IMG/VR virus record: IMGVR_UViG_3300020165_001212 | Location: 1-22,565 of that record | From: a virus | Reading direction: 5' to 3' (one strand) | Length of the DNA stretch: 22,565 nt | Shown: in pieces, positions 4,079 to 11,351 of the stretch | Position numbering within the stretch: the first letter of the stretch is position 1 | How the letters are laid out: every line of letters starts with the position of its first letter | The notes under the pieces: generated by a model | What the model was told of the DNA's origin: nothing | What the model saw: the letters and a program-made list of their open reading frames with translations, nothing else | Database searches by the model: none | Made by a program: the position numbers and the translations under genes

Positions 4079-4152
4079 TACTATTAGGATAATAGGATTA
4101 TTTACGGAAATGGAAAACTACATTTTTTTTGGTCTCAATTGGAGATAATTAC

Positions 4153-4848
4153 ATGTCATACGGAAGTAGTTTTTTACAGGGTACAAAGGGCGGCACTTAC
4201 GCTGCTGGTTGGAGAATTGGCACAAGTGGCGTCGTAGATGGTGGCACTATAGTCAAGGCAGGTAATAAGGCTTCTGATAGCCCAATTACCAACAGTGTTG
4301 GTGTTAGTGAGTTGGCCGACAATCTTGGTGAAAGAAACATCGGTTCTAAAGTTTTGGTTCATTCTGGAAGTGGTGCAGCCACTACTGATAGAGCAGGTGT
4401 CATGGAAGCAAGAGGCAACGGAGTCGGAACCATTGCTTTCACACCCGATCCAAGCGATAGAACAGCGTCTGCTCCACAATTTGTTATGAGAGGCGTATCT
4501 ACAACCCTAAATGGCTCTGCTAATACCACAATTTTGAGCAGAGGAACCGTTGGTGATGGTAGATATGGTAATCTTCATAGCACTATCACCGATAGAAAAA
4601 TTGGATCGAAAGCCGATGAAGCGTTTGACATCATGGCACGACCAAGCACTCAGATCGTTCCGGGTAGAACTAAAGGTACTGGAGCCGGTGATGCAAACCT
4701 TTATGAGAATCCGGCAGACGGATCTGTCGCTGTAGCCAGCGAAATTTTCCCATCTCGTTCAGTTCCGGGTGAATTGACGTACCACTTTGGTGCGCAAGGC
4801 AAACCTACCACTGACGAGTACAAAGCTAAAGATACGCACGAATCGTAA
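4153..4848 (+). CDS. Glycine-rich possible virion protein
   Basis: A 231-aa protein rich in Gly, Thr, Ser, Ala and Asn, without cysteines, membrane segments or a signal peptide. The composition and Gly/Thr/Val-rich stretches throughout suggest a beta-structured head-decoration or other virion protein; no family motif is recognisable, so this rests on composition only. The start is ATG 4153, eight bases after GGAG (4141-4144); the upstream in-frame TTG at 4129 has no ribosome site. Eight T residues (4122-4129) and two TAGGAT repeats lie upstream. It follows the sigma gene and is closed by a terminator at 4866, so it may be the main product of its transcript. Confidence 0.7.
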   Translation: MSYGSSFLQGTKGGTYAAGWRIGTSGVVDGGTIVKAGNKASDSPITNSVGVSELADNLGERNIGSKVLVHSGSGAATTDRAGVMEARGNGVGTIAFTPDPSDRTASAPQFVMRGVSTTLNGSANTTILSRGTVGDGRYGNLHSTITDRKIGSKADEAFDIMARPSTQIVPGRTKGTGAGDANLYENPADGSVAVASEIFPSRSVPGELTYHFGAQGKPTTDEYKAKDTHES

Positions 4849-4865: not shown

Positions 4866-4900
4866 GTTCCTCTCTCGTTTTCGGGGGAGGAACTTTTATT
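4866..4900 (+). terminator. Rho-independent terminator
   Basis: GTTCCTCTCTC (4866-4876) pairs with GGGGGAGGAAC (4883-4893) through eleven pairs including two G-T wobbles around the loop GTTTTC, followed by TTTTATTT. It ends the unit that includes the glycine-rich protein and lies just before the cassette at 4915. Confidence 0.85.
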
Positions 4901-4914
4901 TGGGAGGTTTCGCA

Positions 4915-5493
4915 ATGTTTGATGCTGAGACAATCACTTTCGCAACAGCAATAGCGGGAGCCGTAGTTTCATCTGGAGCTTTTATGTGGAAGAAACTAGT
5001 ACAGCCTGCTATTAAATTTTTAGAAGATCAAGAGGACTTAAAAAAGTCGATACAAACAATTAAGAGTGAGGTAACACCTAACGGTGGCGGGTCAATGAAA
5101 GATGCCTTAAATAGCTTAAGGCAAACCTGCGGAAATATAGAAAGAAATCAGAAAGTTTTAGATCAAAGGTCTAAAGCTGCCCTACATTACCACGACAGAG
5201 CATTATTCGAAATAGATAGTAGCGGAAGGTTGTCTTGGTTTAATGACCAATTTGAGGTAATAACAAAAGGCTCTGATAGCCCCAAAAAGGGGTTCGATTG
5301 GGTGAACATTGTAGACGAGTGCGGCAGAGATGATTTCGTAAAAGAAATAGCGTCTTGTTTAGAAATGAACAGGAAAATAGATATAGTTACAAAGTCTGTT
5401 GCTGAACACAATGTACACTTTTTAGGTTATCCGTACAGGATTACGGAGAATGAACATGAGGGATTTTTAATTCATCTTTACAAGGAGAACTAA
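4915..5493 (+). CDS. Membrane-anchored PAS-domain protein
   Basis: A 192-aa protein. Residues 6-24 form an N-terminal membrane helix; residues 36-90 are a coiled-coil-like stalk that includes an NGGGSMKDAL segment (56-65), a motif I associate with small phage membrane proteins near holins. Residues about 95-190 look like a PAS domain: ALFEIDSSGRLSWFND start, a WVNIVDECGRDDF middle and a terminal pair of beta strands. PAS domains bind ligands or mediate protein contacts in sensors. No kinase, cyclase or other output domain follows. The start is ATG 4915, seven bases after GGGAGG (4902-4907), rather than the upstream TTG inside the terminator. The next gene, two bases away, encodes a holin-like protein, so it may tune lysis timing (inference). 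Confidence 0.75.
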   Translation: MFDAETITFATAIAGAVVSSGAFMWKKLVQPAIKFLEDQEDLKKSIQTIKSEVTPNGGGSMKDALNSLRQTCGNIERNQKVLDQRSKAALHYHDRALFEIDSSGRLSWFNDQFEVITKGSDSPKKGFDWVNIVDECGRDDFVKEIASCLEMNRKIDIVTKSVAEHNVHFLGYPYRITENEHEGFLIHLYKEN

Positions 5494-5494
5494 T

Positions 5495-5716
5495 ATGGGT
5501 TCTAAAAAATTTACTTTGAACTGGTCTGACTTTACAAGTATTGGAAAAAATGCAGTTCTAGTAGGTGGAGCAGCGGCTCTTACTTATGTTGCTGGAAACT
5601 TAGATCAAATTGATCTAGGATCTTTGGGCGCATTGCTAGTACCTATCGTCGCTGTTGGATTAGACACCGCTATCAAGTGGTTGAAAGACAACAAAGATGT
5701 AGAAGAAAAGGAATAG
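5495..5716 (+). CDS. Holin-like two-helix membrane protein
   Basis: A 73-aa protein with two hydrophobic segments (about 18-36 and 42-60) separated by a short acidic turn, a basic N-terminus and a highly charged C-terminus (KDNKDVEEKE). This is the shape of class II holins, which assemble in the inner membrane and trigger lysis. AAGGAG precedes the ATG. It sits directly between the PAS protein and a cysteine peptidase, a position where phages usually place holin before endolysin. The call rests on topology and location because holins share little sequence. Confidence 0.7.
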   Translation: MGSKKFTLNWSDFTSIGKNAVLVGGAAALTYVAGNLDQIDLGSLGALLVPIVAVGLDTAIKWLKDNKDVEEKE

Positions 5717-5718
5717 AC

Positions 5719-6642
5719 ATGGAATTTAACAGTCCTAGAGACTTGTTAAATGCCTACAGGGGAGGTTTCCAAGGTAGTGTATGCGACCCAGAGGAAACAG
5801 CCAACCTTTTAGCTAAACTAAAAACTCCAATTTTTGGTGCTACAGCTTACAGATTATACGGTAGTGGAGAGGGCAAACTCTCTCTGCCGTTTAAATCTTT
5901 ATTAAAGGTTGATCCTTCTTTCGGCCCATCCGAAAGACAGACCACAGGCGATTGCGTAAGTCATTCGACAAGAAACGCTATTGATTTAACAAGAATCGTA
6001 GAAATTGATATTAAAGGCGAGTCAGAATCTTTTGAGGCTCGCGGTGCAACCGAAGGTATATACCAATCCAGAGGTCACAGACAGCAAGGTATGACCTGTT
6101 CGGGGGCTGCAAAATACGTCCACTCTAAAGGTGGAATTCTTATAAGGAAAGACTACGGAAAAGTAGACTTATCTAAATATAATTCAGCTCTTGGTGCTAA
6201 CCACAAAATACCTAGTAGTATATATTCGACAGAAGCAAAGAAGCATCAAGTAAAAACAATTTCTTTAATAACTACAGTAGAAGAAGCTAGAGACGCTTTA
6301 GCTAATGGTTATGGTATTTCTGTTTGTTCGAGCATAGGCTTTTCATCAAAGAGAGACAACAAGGGCATTGCGAAACGGTCTAGCGGTTGGAATCATGCTA
6401 TGGCTTGGATTGCTTGCGATGACACTGGAACTCGTCATAAAGAAACATTATTTCTAGTTCAAAACAGTTGGGGATCGTGGAATAGTGGGTCAAAAGTTCA
6501 TAGCCAACCAGAAGGTAGTTTTTGGATAAGAGAGAAGGATGCCAGAGCAATGCTGGCACAACAAGGATCTTGGGTTTTTAGCGAAGTGGACGGGTTCCCT
6601 GCTAAAAATTTACCAGATTACGGCACAACCTCTTACCTATAG
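5719..6642 (+). CDS. Papain-like (C1) cysteine peptidase
   Basis: A 307-aa peptidase-like protein. Its catalytic residues appear in papain order: Q74 and C79 in RQTTGDCVSHS, H226 in SGWNHAMAW and N249 in LVQNSWGS, the hallmark NSWG of family C1. There is no signal peptide or propeptide with ERFNIN pattern; the N-terminal 70 residues are a species-specific extension. Start ATG 5719 has AAAAGGA six bases upstream; the longer open frame from 5677 lacks a ribosome site and would overlap the holin. It sits where an endolysin is expected, right after the holin, so it may cleave peptide bonds in the host envelope. Alternatives are processing of phage proteins or attack on host proteins. Confidence 0.85.
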   Translation: MEFNSPRDLLNAYRGGFQGSVCDPEETANLLAKLKTPIFGATAYRLYGSGEGKLSLPFKSLLKVDPSFGPSERQTTGDCVSHSTRNAIDLTRIVEIDIKGESESFEARGATEGIYQSRGHRQQGMTCSGAAKYVHSKGGILIRKDYGKVDLSKYNSALGANHKIPSSIYSTEAKKHQVKTISLITTVEEARDALANGYGISVCSSIGFSSKRDNKGIAKRSSGWNHAMAWIACDDTGTRHKETLFLVQNSWGSWNSGSKVHSQPEGSFWIREKDARAMLAQQGSWVFSEVDGFPAKNLPDYGTTSYL

Positions 6643-6650
6643 GTGTTATT

Positions 6651-7274
6651 ATGAAACTATTAAGTACATGGCTTTTAGCCTCAAGTTTAGCAGTATTTAG
6701 CTTTCTCGGAGACAATGACAAATCAAACTTTAGACCTTACATTTCTACTAATCTCGCACAAGTCATAATGACTGAGGATGAGATTGATATTGTAGAAGAA
6801 AAGTGTGATGGTTCTGGTTGGATAACTCACGGAGATGGTCATAGAACTGAATGTCCCGGATGTTCCGCTTGCGAAAGCAAAGAGATAGAACTTAAATCAA
6901 TTGTAGAGCCTGAACAAGAAGATTTAAAAAAAAAAGAATCCTCCCAAGAGTCTTCAACTTCTTTAGAAGATTCAGAGTTCTACGTTTATCATCTCGGGGC
7001 GAAATGGTGTCCTCCATGCAGAACGATGTTAAAGAAAACGTGGGTTAGCAAAAACGTCAAAGAACTTATTAAAAGTAAAAAAGCAAAGCTATTTATCTAT
7101 GACGAAGCAGACCCCAAGCATAAAAAATTCTTTTCATACTACAAGGTGAGAAGCTATCCTACCGTTGTAATTGTAGATAAAGAAGCTCTAAACAAACCTC
7201 TGTATAACAAGTCTGGCTATCTAGATGAAGATGCTGCTATAAAAATTATAAACGAGGTGTTAAAAAATGATTGA
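6651..7274 (+). CDS. Exported thioredoxin-like protein with DnaJ-type cysteine motif
   Basis: A 207-aa protein with three parts. Residues 1-20 are a signal peptide or membrane anchor (Lys, then a hydrophobic stretch). Residues 52-74 hold four cysteines in a half DnaJ-type zinc motif (CDGSGWITHGDGHRTECPGC plus a further Cys at 74). After a polar linker, residues about 109-205 form a thioredoxin fold with the active site WCPPC at 119-123 and the cis-proline of SYPTVV at 170. It would act in the periplasm or at the membrane as a disulfide reductase or isomerase. It lies just after the cysteine peptidase and overlaps the next small gene. Keeping the peptidase thiol reduced, or folding lysis proteins, is an inference. 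Confidence 0.8.
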   Translation: MKLLSTWLLASSLAVFSFLGDNDKSNFRPYISTNLAQVIMTEDEIDIVEEKCDGSGWITHGDGHRTECPGCSACESKEIELKSIVEPEQEDLKKKESSQESSTSLEDSEFYVYHLGAKWCPPCRTMLKKTWVSKNVKELIKSKKAKLFIYDEADPKHKKFFSYYKVRSYPTVVIVDKEALNKPLYNKSGYLDEDAAIKIINEVLKND

Positions 7275-7614
7275 TGACCTTAAAGATGTAACCCCTGCCC
7301 AAAGAAGCATAGCCGAAAGAATCATCATCTTCGCTCAAGCGAAAGATGAAAATTTTTCTTTAGATCCATTTACAATTATGGCAATTTGTAATTGCATTAT
7401 TTCGGTTATCAAGCTATTATATATGTGCTACTCGAAAGACAGTATTGCGTCAGCAATAAAGAATCACGGGTATGTTCATTCTATACTTCTCAAAAGAGAA
7501 ATTAGAAAACACTTTAAAGACAGAAAACGTAGAAAAGTAATTTACGATAGTTTTAAAGAGGTAGGAACCTCTCTTTCAAAAATGGAGTTAATTAACTTGA
7601 TGGAAAGTATATAG
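7267..7614 (+). CDS. Hypothetical protein with hydrophobic segment
   Basis: A 115-aa protein that I do not recognise. Residues about 36-56 (TIMAICNCIISVIKLLYMCY) form a hydrophobic stretch with three cysteines that could be a single membrane helix; the C-terminal half is strongly basic (KREIRKHFKDRKRRK around 76-90) and helical, hence probably cytoplasmic. The start overlaps the thioredoxin-like gene by eight bases. It belongs to the cassette of small membrane proteins after the holin. Confidence 0.65.
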   Translation: MIDDLKDVTPAQRSIAERIIIFAQAKDENFSLDPFTIMAICNCIISVIKLLYMCYSKDSIASAIKNHGYVHSILLKREIRKHFKDRKRRKVIYDSFKEVGTSLSKMELINLMESI

Positions 7615-7622
7615 GAGAAATA

Positions 7623-7931
7623 ATGAATAGCTTTCAAATTGTAATGCTTATTGGGTCAGGTCTACTGATAGCAAGCGTTATCCTTCCACCGTGTTGGCAG
7701 ACCCTTAAAAAGATTATTGCCAATCAGGACTGGAATGTCGATTGGCCTGTAAATAAACCAGAGGTCGACGAAGTGTCCCGCAAACGCGACAATCCTACTT
7801 TGGTTGAGATCGTTGAATGTTGGGAATGTCTAAAGAATAAATGCGATAAAGCAAACTTAAAGGATGCTTCAGAAAGTTTAGATGAGATATTCCCGCTACT
7901 TCGCAAAGAAAATAAAGAGGGGGAGAAATAG
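7623..7931 (+). CDS. Small single-span membrane protein
   Basis: A 102-aa protein with one N-terminal membrane helix (about 4-22, FQIVMLIGSGLLIASVILP) and a polar, mostly helical remainder. A WECLKNKC segment around 67-74 contributes cysteines. The N-terminus lacks positive charge while lysines follow the helix, so the soluble part probably faces the cytoplasm. AGGAG precedes the ATG. The shape is compatible with an antiholin or spanin-like role, but there is no sequence motif for either. Confidence 0.65.
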   Translation: MNSFQIVMLIGSGLLIASVILPPCWQTLKKIIANQDWNVDWPVNKPEVDEVSRKRDNPTLVEIVECWECLKNKCDKANLKDASESLDEIFPLLRKENKEGEK

Positions 7932-7933
7932 AT

Positions 7934-8407
7934 ATGTCTAAAACAGTAAAGGTAGTCTTAGCTCTAATCTTAGCCTTATCTGCCGTTTATGGCGAGCAGA
8001 TCATAGACTTAGTAAAAAAATACCCTGTAGATATAGTGAATACGCCCTCTGTTGATATAGAGGAGCCGTCACTAGAATACAAAACCTTGGTTGAAAACAT
8101 TGTGTCTGTGGATATTGAACCCAAAGACGCAAAAGAATTTTCAGACTTTTACACACAACTGTCAGACATTGTACTTAATGAGCCGGGATTTATAGTTTCC
8201 ACAGGCAATTTTAGAGAATTCAACATGATGGCAGGTGGTCTTAACTTTGCTGGCTTAGAGCTAAAAGGAAAGTACCCAAGTTTAGGTCAAGAAATAGATG
8301 ACGCGATTAAAAACACTATTGGTTTAGAAGACTCTGCCTTGACAGACGAGAAGAGAAAAGACCTTTGTGACTGCTTAGACGCAGTGGCTTGGGGAGTTCA
8401 CCAATAA
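7934..8407 (+). CDS. Predicted secreted or membrane-anchored hypothetical protein
   Basis: A 157-aa protein. Residues 1-20 (KTVKVVLALILALSAVYG) form a classic signal peptide with a possible cleavage site at AVYG-E. The mature part is acidic and mixed helical, without known motifs; a DLCDCL segment near the C-terminus carries two cysteines. GGGGGAG lies just upstream. The lack of a lipobox cysteine argues against a lipoprotein spanin subunit. It most likely acts in the periplasm within the lysis or envelope cassette. Confidence 0.68.
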   Translation: MSKTVKVVLALILALSAVYGEQIIDLVKKYPVDIVNTPSVDIEEPSLEYKTLVENIVSVDIEPKDAKEFSDFYTQLSDIVLNEPGFIVSTGNFREFNMMAGGLNFAGLELKGKYPSLGQEIDDAIKNTIGLEDSALTDEKRKDLCDCLDAVAWGVHQ

Positions 8408-8580
8408 TGGGCATTGTCGACTCTTTAATAGCATCTTTGTTAGAAGAATTAAAAATCGAACAGAGAGACATAGACAAAGCCACCAATATTTTAGACATGA
8501 TTTCCTTTACTAAAGAAGATGGGAAAGATGTCATAATCATACAGATTGGAGAGAACGTACAAGTAAAAATAAACAAATAA
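8407..8580 (+). CDS. Small acidic hypothetical protein
   Basis: A 57-aa protein of unknown function, mixed helix then beta strand (KDVIIIQIGENVQVKI). The true start is ATG 8407, overlapping the upstream stop as TAATG and preceded by GGGGAG (8391-8396); an in-frame TTG at 8389 has no advantage. It is the last gene before the terminator at 8591. Confidence 0.65.
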   Translation: MGIVDSLIASLLEELKIEQRDIDKATNILDMISFTKEDGKDVIIIQIGENVQVKINK

Positions 8581-8590
8581 AGAGGCATCT

Positions 8591-8625
8591 AACCCCGCTT
8601 TAATGAAAATTATTGCGGGGTTTTT
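8591..8625 (+). terminator. Rho-independent terminator
   Basis: AACCCCGC (8591-8598) pairs with GCGGGGTT (8615-8622) around a 16-base AT-rich loop, with T residues through 8625. It closes the lysis cassette just before the promoter for the nucleotide and replication genes. Confidence 0.85.
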
Positions 8626-8636
8626 GTACCGACCAC

Positions 8637-8700: not shown

Positions 8701-10926
8701 ATGCAGGTTACAAAGAGTAGTGGAGAACAAGAAGATTACTCTGTTGAGAAAATTCACAAAGTGGTTCAGTGGGCAACAAAAGGTATTAACGGCGTTTCAT
8801 TTTCTGACATCGTAATGAACGCCAACCTTTCTTTATATGATAAAATATCTACAAGAGAAATTCACAGCGTGCTTATTAAATCTGCAAACGATTTAATTTC
8901 TACAAATTCGCCAAACTATCAGTACGTTGCTGCAAAACTTCTAAACATGCAGCTTAGAAAAGAAGTTTGGGGCGGGGATCAAGAGCCAGACTTTCTTACT
9001 TTTGTTCGTAGAAACGTAGACAAAGGTGTGTACGACTCGTCTATCGAGAAAAGGTGGACGGAACAGCAGATAGACTCTCTAGGTAAATACATCAATCATG
9101 GTCGTGATGACGTTCTTACGTATGCAGGACTACAACAGCTTATTGATAAGTACCTAGTAAAAAATCGAAGCACCGGAGTTATTTACGAGACTCCACAATT
9201 TGCTTACATGTGTATTGCTATGTGTTTGTTTGACGATATGAATGAGGTAAAAAAGGCTTATGACTGCTACTCGACGTTTAAAATCAATCTTCCTACACCT
9301 ATCATGGCTGGTGTTAGAACAAATATTAGACAGTTTTCTAGTTGTGTCTTGGTTGATGTTGACGATGATCTCGATGCCATTTTTTCTTCTGTACACGCTG
9401 TCGGAAAGTATACTGCTAGGCGTGCTGGAATTGGACTCAATATTGGAAGAGTTAGACCAATCAATAGTCCGATACGCGGAGGGGAGGTCATCCACACGGG
9501 ACTAATCCCCTACTTGAAGAACTTTGAGTCAGCAGTTAAATCAACATCCCAGAACGGCATCCGTGGAGGCTCTGCTACGGTTCATGTACCATTCTGGCAC
9601 TATGAGATTGAAGATATTATGGTGTTGAAAAACAATGCTGGGACAGATGACAACAGGGTGCGTAAGCTAGATTATAGCGTTCAATTTTGTAAGCTATTCT
9701 ATGATCGTTTAATTGCCAACGAAAATATTACTCTATTCAGTCCAGATGAAGCAAAGGGTTTGTATGAAGCGTTTGGTGACAACGAGAAATTCGAAGAGCT
9801 GTATCTAAAGTATGAGAGAGCAACATCTTTAAAGTTTAAGAAGAAGGTTCCAGCCCGACAGATTGCACAGATATACGCTCGCGAACGATTAGAAACCGGA
9901 CGTATTTATAGTATGAATATTGACTCAGCAAATGCACACGGGTCGTGGGATGTACCTTGCCATATGAGTAATCTATGTCAAGAAATTATACACCCCACAA
10001 AACCAATTAAATCCATTGACGATCCAGAAGGCGAGATAGGTATTTGTATTCTGTCTGCATTGAATCTTCTCGAATTAAACAGCGAAAAGGACATTGAAGA
10101 TGCTTGCCGGATTGCGGTAAGAACCCTAGAAGCAGTTATTGATTATCAAGATTACCCTGTGTTAGCTGGTAAGAATTTTACAGTCAACCGTAGATCATTA
10201 GGTATTGGTATAACCAACCTTGCTGGCTTTCTAGCCAAGAACAGGTTGGGATACGGAGATGAAGAAGCATTAAAATTAATTCACGAAACTATGGAGCAGA
10301 TTCAATGGAACCTACTCAATGCAAGCTGTGAACTCGCAGAAGAAAAAGGTGCGTGCGCTAAGTTTGAAGACACAAAGTACGCAAAAGGTTTGCTACCCAT
10401 TGACTGGTACAAAAAAGAGGTCGATGAGTTAGTTAATCCTACGTACAATATGGACTGGGAGGGTCTACGTAAGAGGATTAAAAAGTTCGGTCTTAGACAT
10501 TCTACACTTTCTGCACAAATGCCCTGTGAATCAAGCAGCGTGGTTCAAAACTCCACCAATGGACAAGAGCCAGTGAGAAGTTACTTAACTCGTAAAAAAG
10601 CAAAAAATGGTGTGCTAAAACAGCTTGTTCCCAACTATCATACGAGAAGGAAGTATTACACGATGGCGTGGGAAATTAAAGACTGCAAGTGTTTAATGAA
10701 TATGGCCGCAGTTATGCAGAAGTTTATCGACATGAGCATGAGTACAAACCTATACTACAATTATGATCATTACGAAGAAGGGAAAATTCCCTTGAGTGTT
10801 ATTATCAAGGATCAAATTTACGCATACAAATACGGATTAAAAAACCTCTATTACTGCAACACACCTGATGGTGATGGAGAAGAAGAAAAAGATATGGGCT
10901 GTGAATCAGGAGCCTGTGCAATATGA
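8701..10926 (+). CDS. nrdA: Ribonucleoside-diphosphate reductase class Ia, alpha subunit
   Basis: A 741-aa catalytic subunit that reduces ribonucleoside diphosphates to deoxy forms with the NrdB radical subunit. Residues 1-90 form an ATP-cone allosteric domain. The catalytic set seems complete by comparison with E. coli NrdA from memory: C215 and C449 as the redox pair, N424, C426 (thiyl radical) and E428 in SNLCQE, and tandem tyrosines Y717-Y718 for radical transfer. The C-terminus ends GCESGACAI with C734 and C739, the pair that shuttles electrons from thioredoxin or glutaredoxin. The length matches the family and I see no intein or intron. The next gene overlaps by ATGA. It is the first gene after the 8637 promoter. 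Confidence 0.97.
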   Translation: MQVTKSSGEQEDYSVEKIHKVVQWATKGINGVSFSDIVMNANLSLYDKISTREIHSVLIKSANDLISTNSPNYQYVAAKLLNMQLRKEVWGGDQEPDFLTFVRRNVDKGVYDSSIEKRWTEQQIDSLGKYINHGRDDVLTYAGLQQLIDKYLVKNRSTGVIYETPQFAYMCIAMCLFDDMNEVKKAYDCYSTFKINLPTPIMAGVRTNIRQFSSCVLVDVDDDLDAIFSSVHAVGKYTARRAGIGLNIGRVRPINSPIRGGEVIHTGLIPYLKNFESAVKSTSQNGIRGGSATVHVPFWHYEIEDIMVLKNNAGTDDNRVRKLDYSVQFCKLFYDRLIANENITLFSPDEAKGLYEAFGDNEKFEELYLKYERATSLKFKKKVPARQIAQIYARERLETGRIYSMNIDSANAHGSWDVPCHMSNLCQEIIHPTKPIKSIDDPEGEIGICILSALNLLELNSEKDIEDACRIAVRTLEAVIDYQDYPVLAGKNFTVNRRSLGIGITNLAGFLAKNRLGYGDEEALKLIHETMEQIQWNLLNASCELAEEKGACAKFEDTKYAKGLLPIDWYKKEVDELVNPTYNMDWEGLRKRIKKFGLRHSTLSAQMPCESSSVVQNSTNGQEPVRSYLTRKKAKNGVLKQLVPNYHTRRKYYTMAWEIKDCKCLMNMAAVMQKFIDMSMSTNLYYNYDHYEEGKIPLSVIIKDQIYAYKYGLKNLYYCNTPDGDGEEEKDMGCESGACAI

Positions 10927-11351
10927 GCGAGAGAAAGGTTGGTAGGGTAGGATTTATTGCATCTGCTTTTGATTTGTGTCACGCGGGACACCTGTTAACG
11001 CTAAGAGAATGTCGAGAAAAATGTGACTGGCTTATTGTTGGTTTGCAAATCGACCCTTCATCGCAAAGGTCTTTCAAAAATAAGCCTATCGAAACTGTGT
11101 TTGAAAGATATTTAAGGTTGGATCAAAACGAGAATGTAGATAAGATAATTCCTTATGAAACGGAGTATGATCTTTACGTCTTGATGCAATCAGAAAAAAT
11201 AGATGTTATATTTTTAGGAGAAGATTATAAGAAGGTTGCAGACTATACAGCAAAAAAGTTACCTACACCAAAATATTTTTGTAAAAGGTACGACGGATAC
11301 TCATCATCAAAACTAAGACAAAGAATTTTAACAGCGGAGCAAAACAAATGA
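10923..11351 (+). CDS. Cytidylyltransferase-like nucleotidyltransferase
   Basis: A 142-aa protein of the HxGH nucleotidyltransferase superfamily, which joins a nucleotide to a phosphorylated substrate. The signature HAGH is at 20-23, the central segment VIFLGEDY is at 95-102, and SSSKLR at 127-132 corresponds to the ISSTxLR motif of TagD-type glycerol-3-phosphate cytidylyltransferases. The length equals a single catalytic domain. It overlaps nrdA and nrdB by ATGA at both ends, so all three are translationally coupled. Substrate is unknown; CDP-glycerol, CDP-sugar or ADP-linked products are possible. Its position inside the RNR pair is unusual. Confidence 0.85.
   Translation: MSERKVGRVGFIASAFDLCHAGHLLTLRECREKCDWLIVGLQIDPSSQRSFKNKPIETVFERYLRLDQNENVDKIIPYETEYDLYVLMQSEKIDVIFLGEDYKKVADYTAKKLPTPKYFCKRYDGYSSSKLRQRILTAEQNK

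Follow-up and report, generated by a model that had tools for sequence, protein, structure and literature searches.

The closest described counterparts of the gene set analysed here are the holin-endolysin-spanin cassettes of tailed phages. The set shares with them a small holin-like membrane protein that is interchangeable with others, a putative wall-cutting enzyme that occurs with or without a signal anchor, and extra membrane or exported proteins. It differs from them in that its enzyme is a predicted papain-fold protease, accompanied by an exported zinc-knuckle/thioredoxin protein and a helical membrane protein, and in that no standard peptidoglycan hydrolase was found; because this defining test failed, we do not file the set as an ordinary member of that group. 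PeiW and PeiP (family C71) from viruses of methanogens are likewise cysteine peptidases that lyse a cell with a non-standard wall, but they belong to another peptidase family and their target is pseudomurein, not a protein wall (PMC10318531). In BFVD, 18 matches at E ≤ 0.001 show that the enzyme shares its fold with Peptidase_C1 papain-fold proteins from other viruses and phages, which have no stated role and are only 11 to 18% identical to it. Xylellain and other bacterial C1A peptidases share both its fold and its catalytic residues, but are 16 to 18% identical and host-encoded.

How tailed phages leave planctomycetes is undescribed in the literature that we found, and the load-bearing component of the planctomycete wall is debated. 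These walls have been described as sacculi made of protein and containing disulfide bonds (PMC2754498). Cys-rich YTV proteins have been identified in wall preparations, and most Planctomycetales lack peptidoglycan genes (PMC8567305). Most peptidoglycan genes are non-essential in P. limnophila, and peptidoglycan has been reported in some planctomycetes in references that are cited in the same paper (PMC10632474). A 2025 survey of viral lytic proteins mentions neither papain-type nor planctomycete systems (PMC12596118), and our search of the literature on planctomycete phage lysis found no described system. Here we describe an eight-gene set that is probably, although with real reserve and without any experiment, a cassette for lysis (progeny release) in a phage clade most likely infecting Planctomycetota.

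Organization of the locus

The window, i.e., the whole stretch of DNA analysed, is a virus record of 22,565 bases from an uncultured marine phage, and coordinates given without a contig name are window positions. The replication genes are similar to those of T4-like marine phages. For the ribonucleotide reductase, the nearest relative among deposited sequences, that of Pelagibacter phage Mosig, is only approximately 55% identical. The eight open reading frames, named A to H, occupy 4915-8580 on the plus strand almost without gaps, between a gene at 4129-4848 and nrdA. A terminator-like hairpin with a T-run (4866-4893, plus strand) separates the upstream gene from A and is kept in 28 of 31 related contigs. 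A second one (CCCCGC ... GCGGGG with a T-run; about 8592-8627, plus strand) follows H; it was read directly in the sequence, since the loop limit of the hairpin scan caused the scan to miss it. The sequence-only reading, which had proposed a lysis or envelope-attack cassette here, thus delimited the eight genes and their two terminators correctly. Because the first hairpin stands close before the ribosome site of A, we infer that the set probably owes its expression to read-through from the gene upstream, which by eye resembles a late structural product. The leader of that gene (4086-4115) contains four GGA motifs (AGGA, AGGA, CGGA, and TGGA) spaced by about 6 to 11 nt; such repeats recur in the same leader of the related contigs printed and resemble a CsrA/RsmA-type RNA site.

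Papain-fold protease C

C (5719-6642, plus strand) has no signal peptide, and profile searches gave no match in Pfam, including Peptidase_C1, or among PDB sequences. AlphaFold gave a model of moderate confidence (pLDDT 62), with which a Foldseek search returned 124 PDB chain matches at E ≤ 0.001; among the 50 of these chains that were listed, all are of the papain/cathepsin type, with xylellain first. The Gln-Cys-His-Asn tetrad (Q74, C79, H226, and N249 in the numbering of the window protein) is invariant both in the C alignment and in 12 divergent homologues, which are 22 to 43% identical to the first of their set. C is also the best conserved member of the eight (79% mean column identity). 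On the strength of the model and the tetrad, we assign C as a papain-fold (C1A) protease and the core of the cassette, its activity being inferred; the C1 peptidase named earlier is borne out in this way and not by a Pfam Peptidase_C1 sequence match.

Conservation and arrangements of the gene set

With C as the query, 178 relatives were found in IMG/VR, and the C profile found at least 581. No match was given by tblastn of C, G, and A against 50,697 deposited phage records, nor by that of the divergent C of contig L087 and two prophage C proteins against the same records; as a query, the L087 protein also found no relatives among viral contigs. The alignment of G was too diverse for a collection-wide profile scan. 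Hundreds of uncultured phage contigs carry the cassette, as do planctomycete prophages (see below), but no deposited phage genome searched does.

Four arrangements occur in the contigs that were fetched: (i) A-B-C-D-E-F-G-H before nrdA, as in the window; (ii) C-D-E-x-F-G-H, elsewhere in the genome; (iii) C-D-x-F-G behind a glycosyltransferase, with H apart; and (iv) C-G-E-x-F, in which the zinc knuckle of D is fused to G. All eight genes are in order in 37 of the 38 contigs of arrangement (i) that have enough flank, C-D-(E)-F-G remain linked in three of the genomic arrangements, and C-G-E-F are linked in the fourth. This conservation far exceeds chance. The expected co-occurrence of the eight families thus holds for the arrangement of the window, but not as a single indivisible unit, an idea that was rejected because three arrangements lack A and B and because one contig (L189) has A and C without D to H. 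A and B are separable from C to G and lie outside the invariant core.

Homologues of C with 33 to 34% identity are also present in Mucilaginibacter (L085 and L086); no phage genes are evident around that of L085, which is possibly domesticated.

A and the exchange of holin-like proteins

A (4915-5493, plus strand) consists of an N-terminal transmembrane segment, the motif EVTPNGGxSxKD, which is invariant in the A alignment, and a PAS domain. A PAS_9 match was obtained for 15 of 23 relatives (best, 1.9e-7), which substantiates the earlier call of a PAS protein even though the window copy alone stays below the Pfam thresholds. A search of PDB sequences with the A profile gave chance matches only. 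Proteins of other phages (L198 to L206), located near terminase, portal, or holin-like genes, have the same combination of transmembrane segment, NGGxSxKD, and PAS domain, but none has C, D, F, or G beside it. A neighbour of the A-like protein in L204 appeared amidase-like by eye and was rejected, as it had no Pfam match.

B (5495-5716, plus strand) is a hydrophobic protein of 73 amino acids, holin-like by hydropathy. In this respect its earlier description as a holin stands, but profile searches matched B itself to no holin family of Pfam or PHROG, and this counts against the lysis interpretation. The protein x of arrangements (ii) to (iv) is a two-transmembrane protein of 54 to 62 amino acids (SRRFW...GDTxR) that is unrelated to B and whose main matches are PHROG holins, namely phrog_9987 (9.5e-4), phrog_4712, and phrog_297. 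B is present in all 40 contigs of arrangement (i) and absent from the other phage arrangements; the SRRFW protein is present in 51 of 51 contigs of arrangements (ii) to (iv) and in 0 of 40 of arrangement (i), so that every phage-type contig with enough flank (91/91) has one or the other beside the enzyme. As the two exclude each other in an otherwise constant set, one holin-like protein replaces another. The arrangements are clades related by descent, and the exchange therefore represents a few independent events, not 91. A homologue of B was also found beside C in one planctomycete chromosome (hhalign E 1e-9).

D and the small proteins E to H

D (6651-7274, plus strand) has a signal-like N-terminus, a zinc knuckle, CDGSGWITHGDGHRTECPGC, and a fused thioredoxin domain with the sequence CPPC (Pfam Thioredoxin_2, 3.9e-9), so that "exported thioredoxin" was a correct description of the window copy. 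It does not extend to the family: the GDGH zinc knuckle is present in 78 of 88 unique D proteins and the thioredoxin in only 22 of the 78 that bear the knuckle, and no thioredoxin was found in two large genomes. An essential role of thioredoxin was rejected on these grounds; the domain is optional, and the constant part of D is the knuckle. Its consensus, CxGxG..GDGHxTxCP, is common to nearly all D proteins (e.g., that of the window and L056:4617-5006), and those that lack thioredoxin frequently have a basic-hydrophobic tail at the end, for instance RRGLFFRR.

The remaining four products, all on the plus strand, are small, and as anticipated some of them carry membrane segments. E (7267-7614; 115 amino acids) has one strong hydrophobic segment, located after a DPFTI motif; F (7623-7931; 102 amino acids) has an N-terminal transmembrane segment followed by a small conserved domain; and G (7934-8407; 157 amino acids) has an N-terminal transmembrane helix and a helical domain, whose model (pLDDT 88.6) matched no solved structure in the PDB at E ≤ 0.001. 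H (8407-8580; 57 amino acids), the start of which overlaps the stop of G, is soluble and has no such segment. Besides the transmembrane proteins F and G, some relatives have a lipobox-like D; no homology to spanins was seen. Any roles for A and D to H are inferred proposals, and none is assigned to E and H.

Other proteases at the same position, and absence of the tested lysins

Profiles of lysozyme (PF00959), amidase_2 (PF01510), SLT (PF01464), and CHAP (PF05257), all of which gave matches in control genomes, had none in seven to eight large cassette-bearing records of up to 174 kb. The A-H set itself contains no peptidoglycan hydrolase domain, and there is none among the Pfam matches listed for the 139 open reading frames of the 173.8-kb relative G001, four weak families being outside that listing. 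The contigs are not proven complete, divergent hydrolases could escape these searches, and M15, M23, and GH108 were not searched in all records.

In two sister contigs, L192 and L194, the backbone is the same as far as A and again from nrdA onward, but C to H are replaced. The replacing segment (L192:5533-8080 and L194:5515-8047) encodes an enzyme resembling C92 (E 0.001) together with an exported protein in which a trypsin-like protease is joined to a thioredoxin domain (3.4e-13 and 8.5e-4). The combination of protease and thioredoxin therefore recurs with an unrelated protease.

The C92-like enzyme is a permuted papain, and the papain-like superfamily includes the CHAP and NlpC/P60 peptidoglycan hydrolases (PMC10318531). 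C could thus be an ordinary endolysin that cuts peptidoglycan cross-bridges as those enzymes do, and the reported planctomycete peptidoglycan (again from references cited in PMC10632474) would offer a substrate, making a wall-protein target unnecessary. We regard this as unlikely, although not negligible, as the structural matches listed for C are protein-degrading C1A enzymes, not CHAP or NlpC, and the replaced segment also holds a trypsin-type protease.

Planctomycete chromosomes and the probable host

A broad C profile matched 13 of 392 Planctomycetota genomes versus 1 of 395 Bacteroidota genomes (Fisher p 9e-4; 0.0035 without the genomes used for building the profile). As a match in each phylum was the reason for choosing these two, the contrast is a guide and not a census. 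Around approximately eight of the planctomycete C loci, terminase, portal, tail, or tape-measure genes were assigned by eye. Among 14 loci, the G profile matched only the open reading frame located 4 to 126 nt upstream of C on the same strand (6 loci), and D-type matches, either thioredoxin or zinc knuckle, lie just downstream in 7. B was found once, in G164, where the order is B, a transmembrane protein, G, C, and thioredoxin; an F-like protein noted there by eye was rejected, as profile comparison gave no support.

Unlike that of the window, C in most planctomycete prophages carries a transmembrane anchor or a Tat signal, a difference that parallels the one between SAR or secreted endolysins and holin-dependent endolysins. 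An exported or anchored protease fits action from inside the cell, which speaks against the idea that some products are virion parts delivered at entry, among them a protease that would be injected or displayed and so breach the wall externally. The extreme conservation of C and the position of the set after a gene resembling a late structural product are compatible with that idea, but a holin-like partner would have no role at entry, and we consider it very improbable.

Of seven large phage contigs from the clade, five encode one to three DUF1501 proteins each (L145, L146, L147, L149, and L148, the last at G001:C1:23359-24537). The family is rich in planctomycete members and is abundant in a planctomycete genome searched alongside (26 matches), which is a hint of a planctomycete host. 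We infer that the host of the phage clade is most likely a member of Planctomycetota. Near-identical cassettes also occur in metagenome-assembled genomes labelled SAR202 and Lokiarchaeota; these labels conflict with such a host and probably reflect mis-binned phage contigs, which is not proven.

The DUF1501 proteins show that these phages carry other exported-type proteins, and the set, with its mostly membrane or exported products, its sensor-like PAS protein, and terminators at both sides, could serve to remodel or guard the envelope during infection (by superinfection exclusion, turnover of host proteins, or PAS stress signalling) without lysis. Such a function would not account well for the replacement of one holin-like protein by another, for the position among structural genes in prophages, or for the lack of any other lysin of the four families in the large contigs, and it appears to us distinctly unlikely.

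Proposed route of lysis

Conservation, the papain fold, the holin exchange, the prophage context, the absence of the tested lysins, and the replacement in L192 and L194 together give lysis or envelope attack, as the sequence-only reading had suggested, good computational support, still without experiment. The position of the set in the clade, next to nrdA and not to tail genes, counts against it. If the set is a lysis cassette, late transcription would pass the leaky terminator behind the upstream gene, probably a strongly expressed late gene; this timing is inferred. B, or the SRRFW-type protein in the other arrangements, would then make holes in the inner membrane, through which the signal-less C may escape and cut the wall's network of peptide or protein in place of an endolysin; both the export through B and the wall-protein substrate are inferences. 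The exported D, the membrane-anchored F and G, and A might open or disrupt the rest of the envelope in a spanin-like or regulatory manner. Where thioredoxin is present on D or a neighbour, it could reduce disulfides and so aid against a cysteine-rich, disulfide-linked planctomycete wall; since it is optional, such reduction cannot be central to the mechanism.

Why a protease should replace the peptidoglycan endolysin would be explained by a planctomycete host that relies on a disulfide-linked protein wall. This specific proposal, wall-protein-directed lysis by a papain-type protease that is often accompanied by an exported disulfide reductase, is tentative, and we rate it at somewhat below an even chance. 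A protease-based release cassette would be a probe of the planctomycete wall, as the target of C would be what holds the cell together, and it would extend the known lysins by a class of proteases and provide a host marker for uncultured phages.

Other genes of the clade

A transmembrane protein of 45 to 46 amino acids (KHKLIxR...GLYFLG..QGWW) is found repeatedly close to the cassette, in different arrangements (L075:10328-10468 and L074:7823-7960). Between nrdA and nrdB, the window has a nucleotidyltransferase-like gene (10923-11351; phrog_7878) that is found at the same place in only some relatives. The relative G001 (L128 to L132) encodes a GAPDH C-terminal domain, a glyoxalase, a Trypsin_2 protein, and a Cas12f1-like/TnpB domain.
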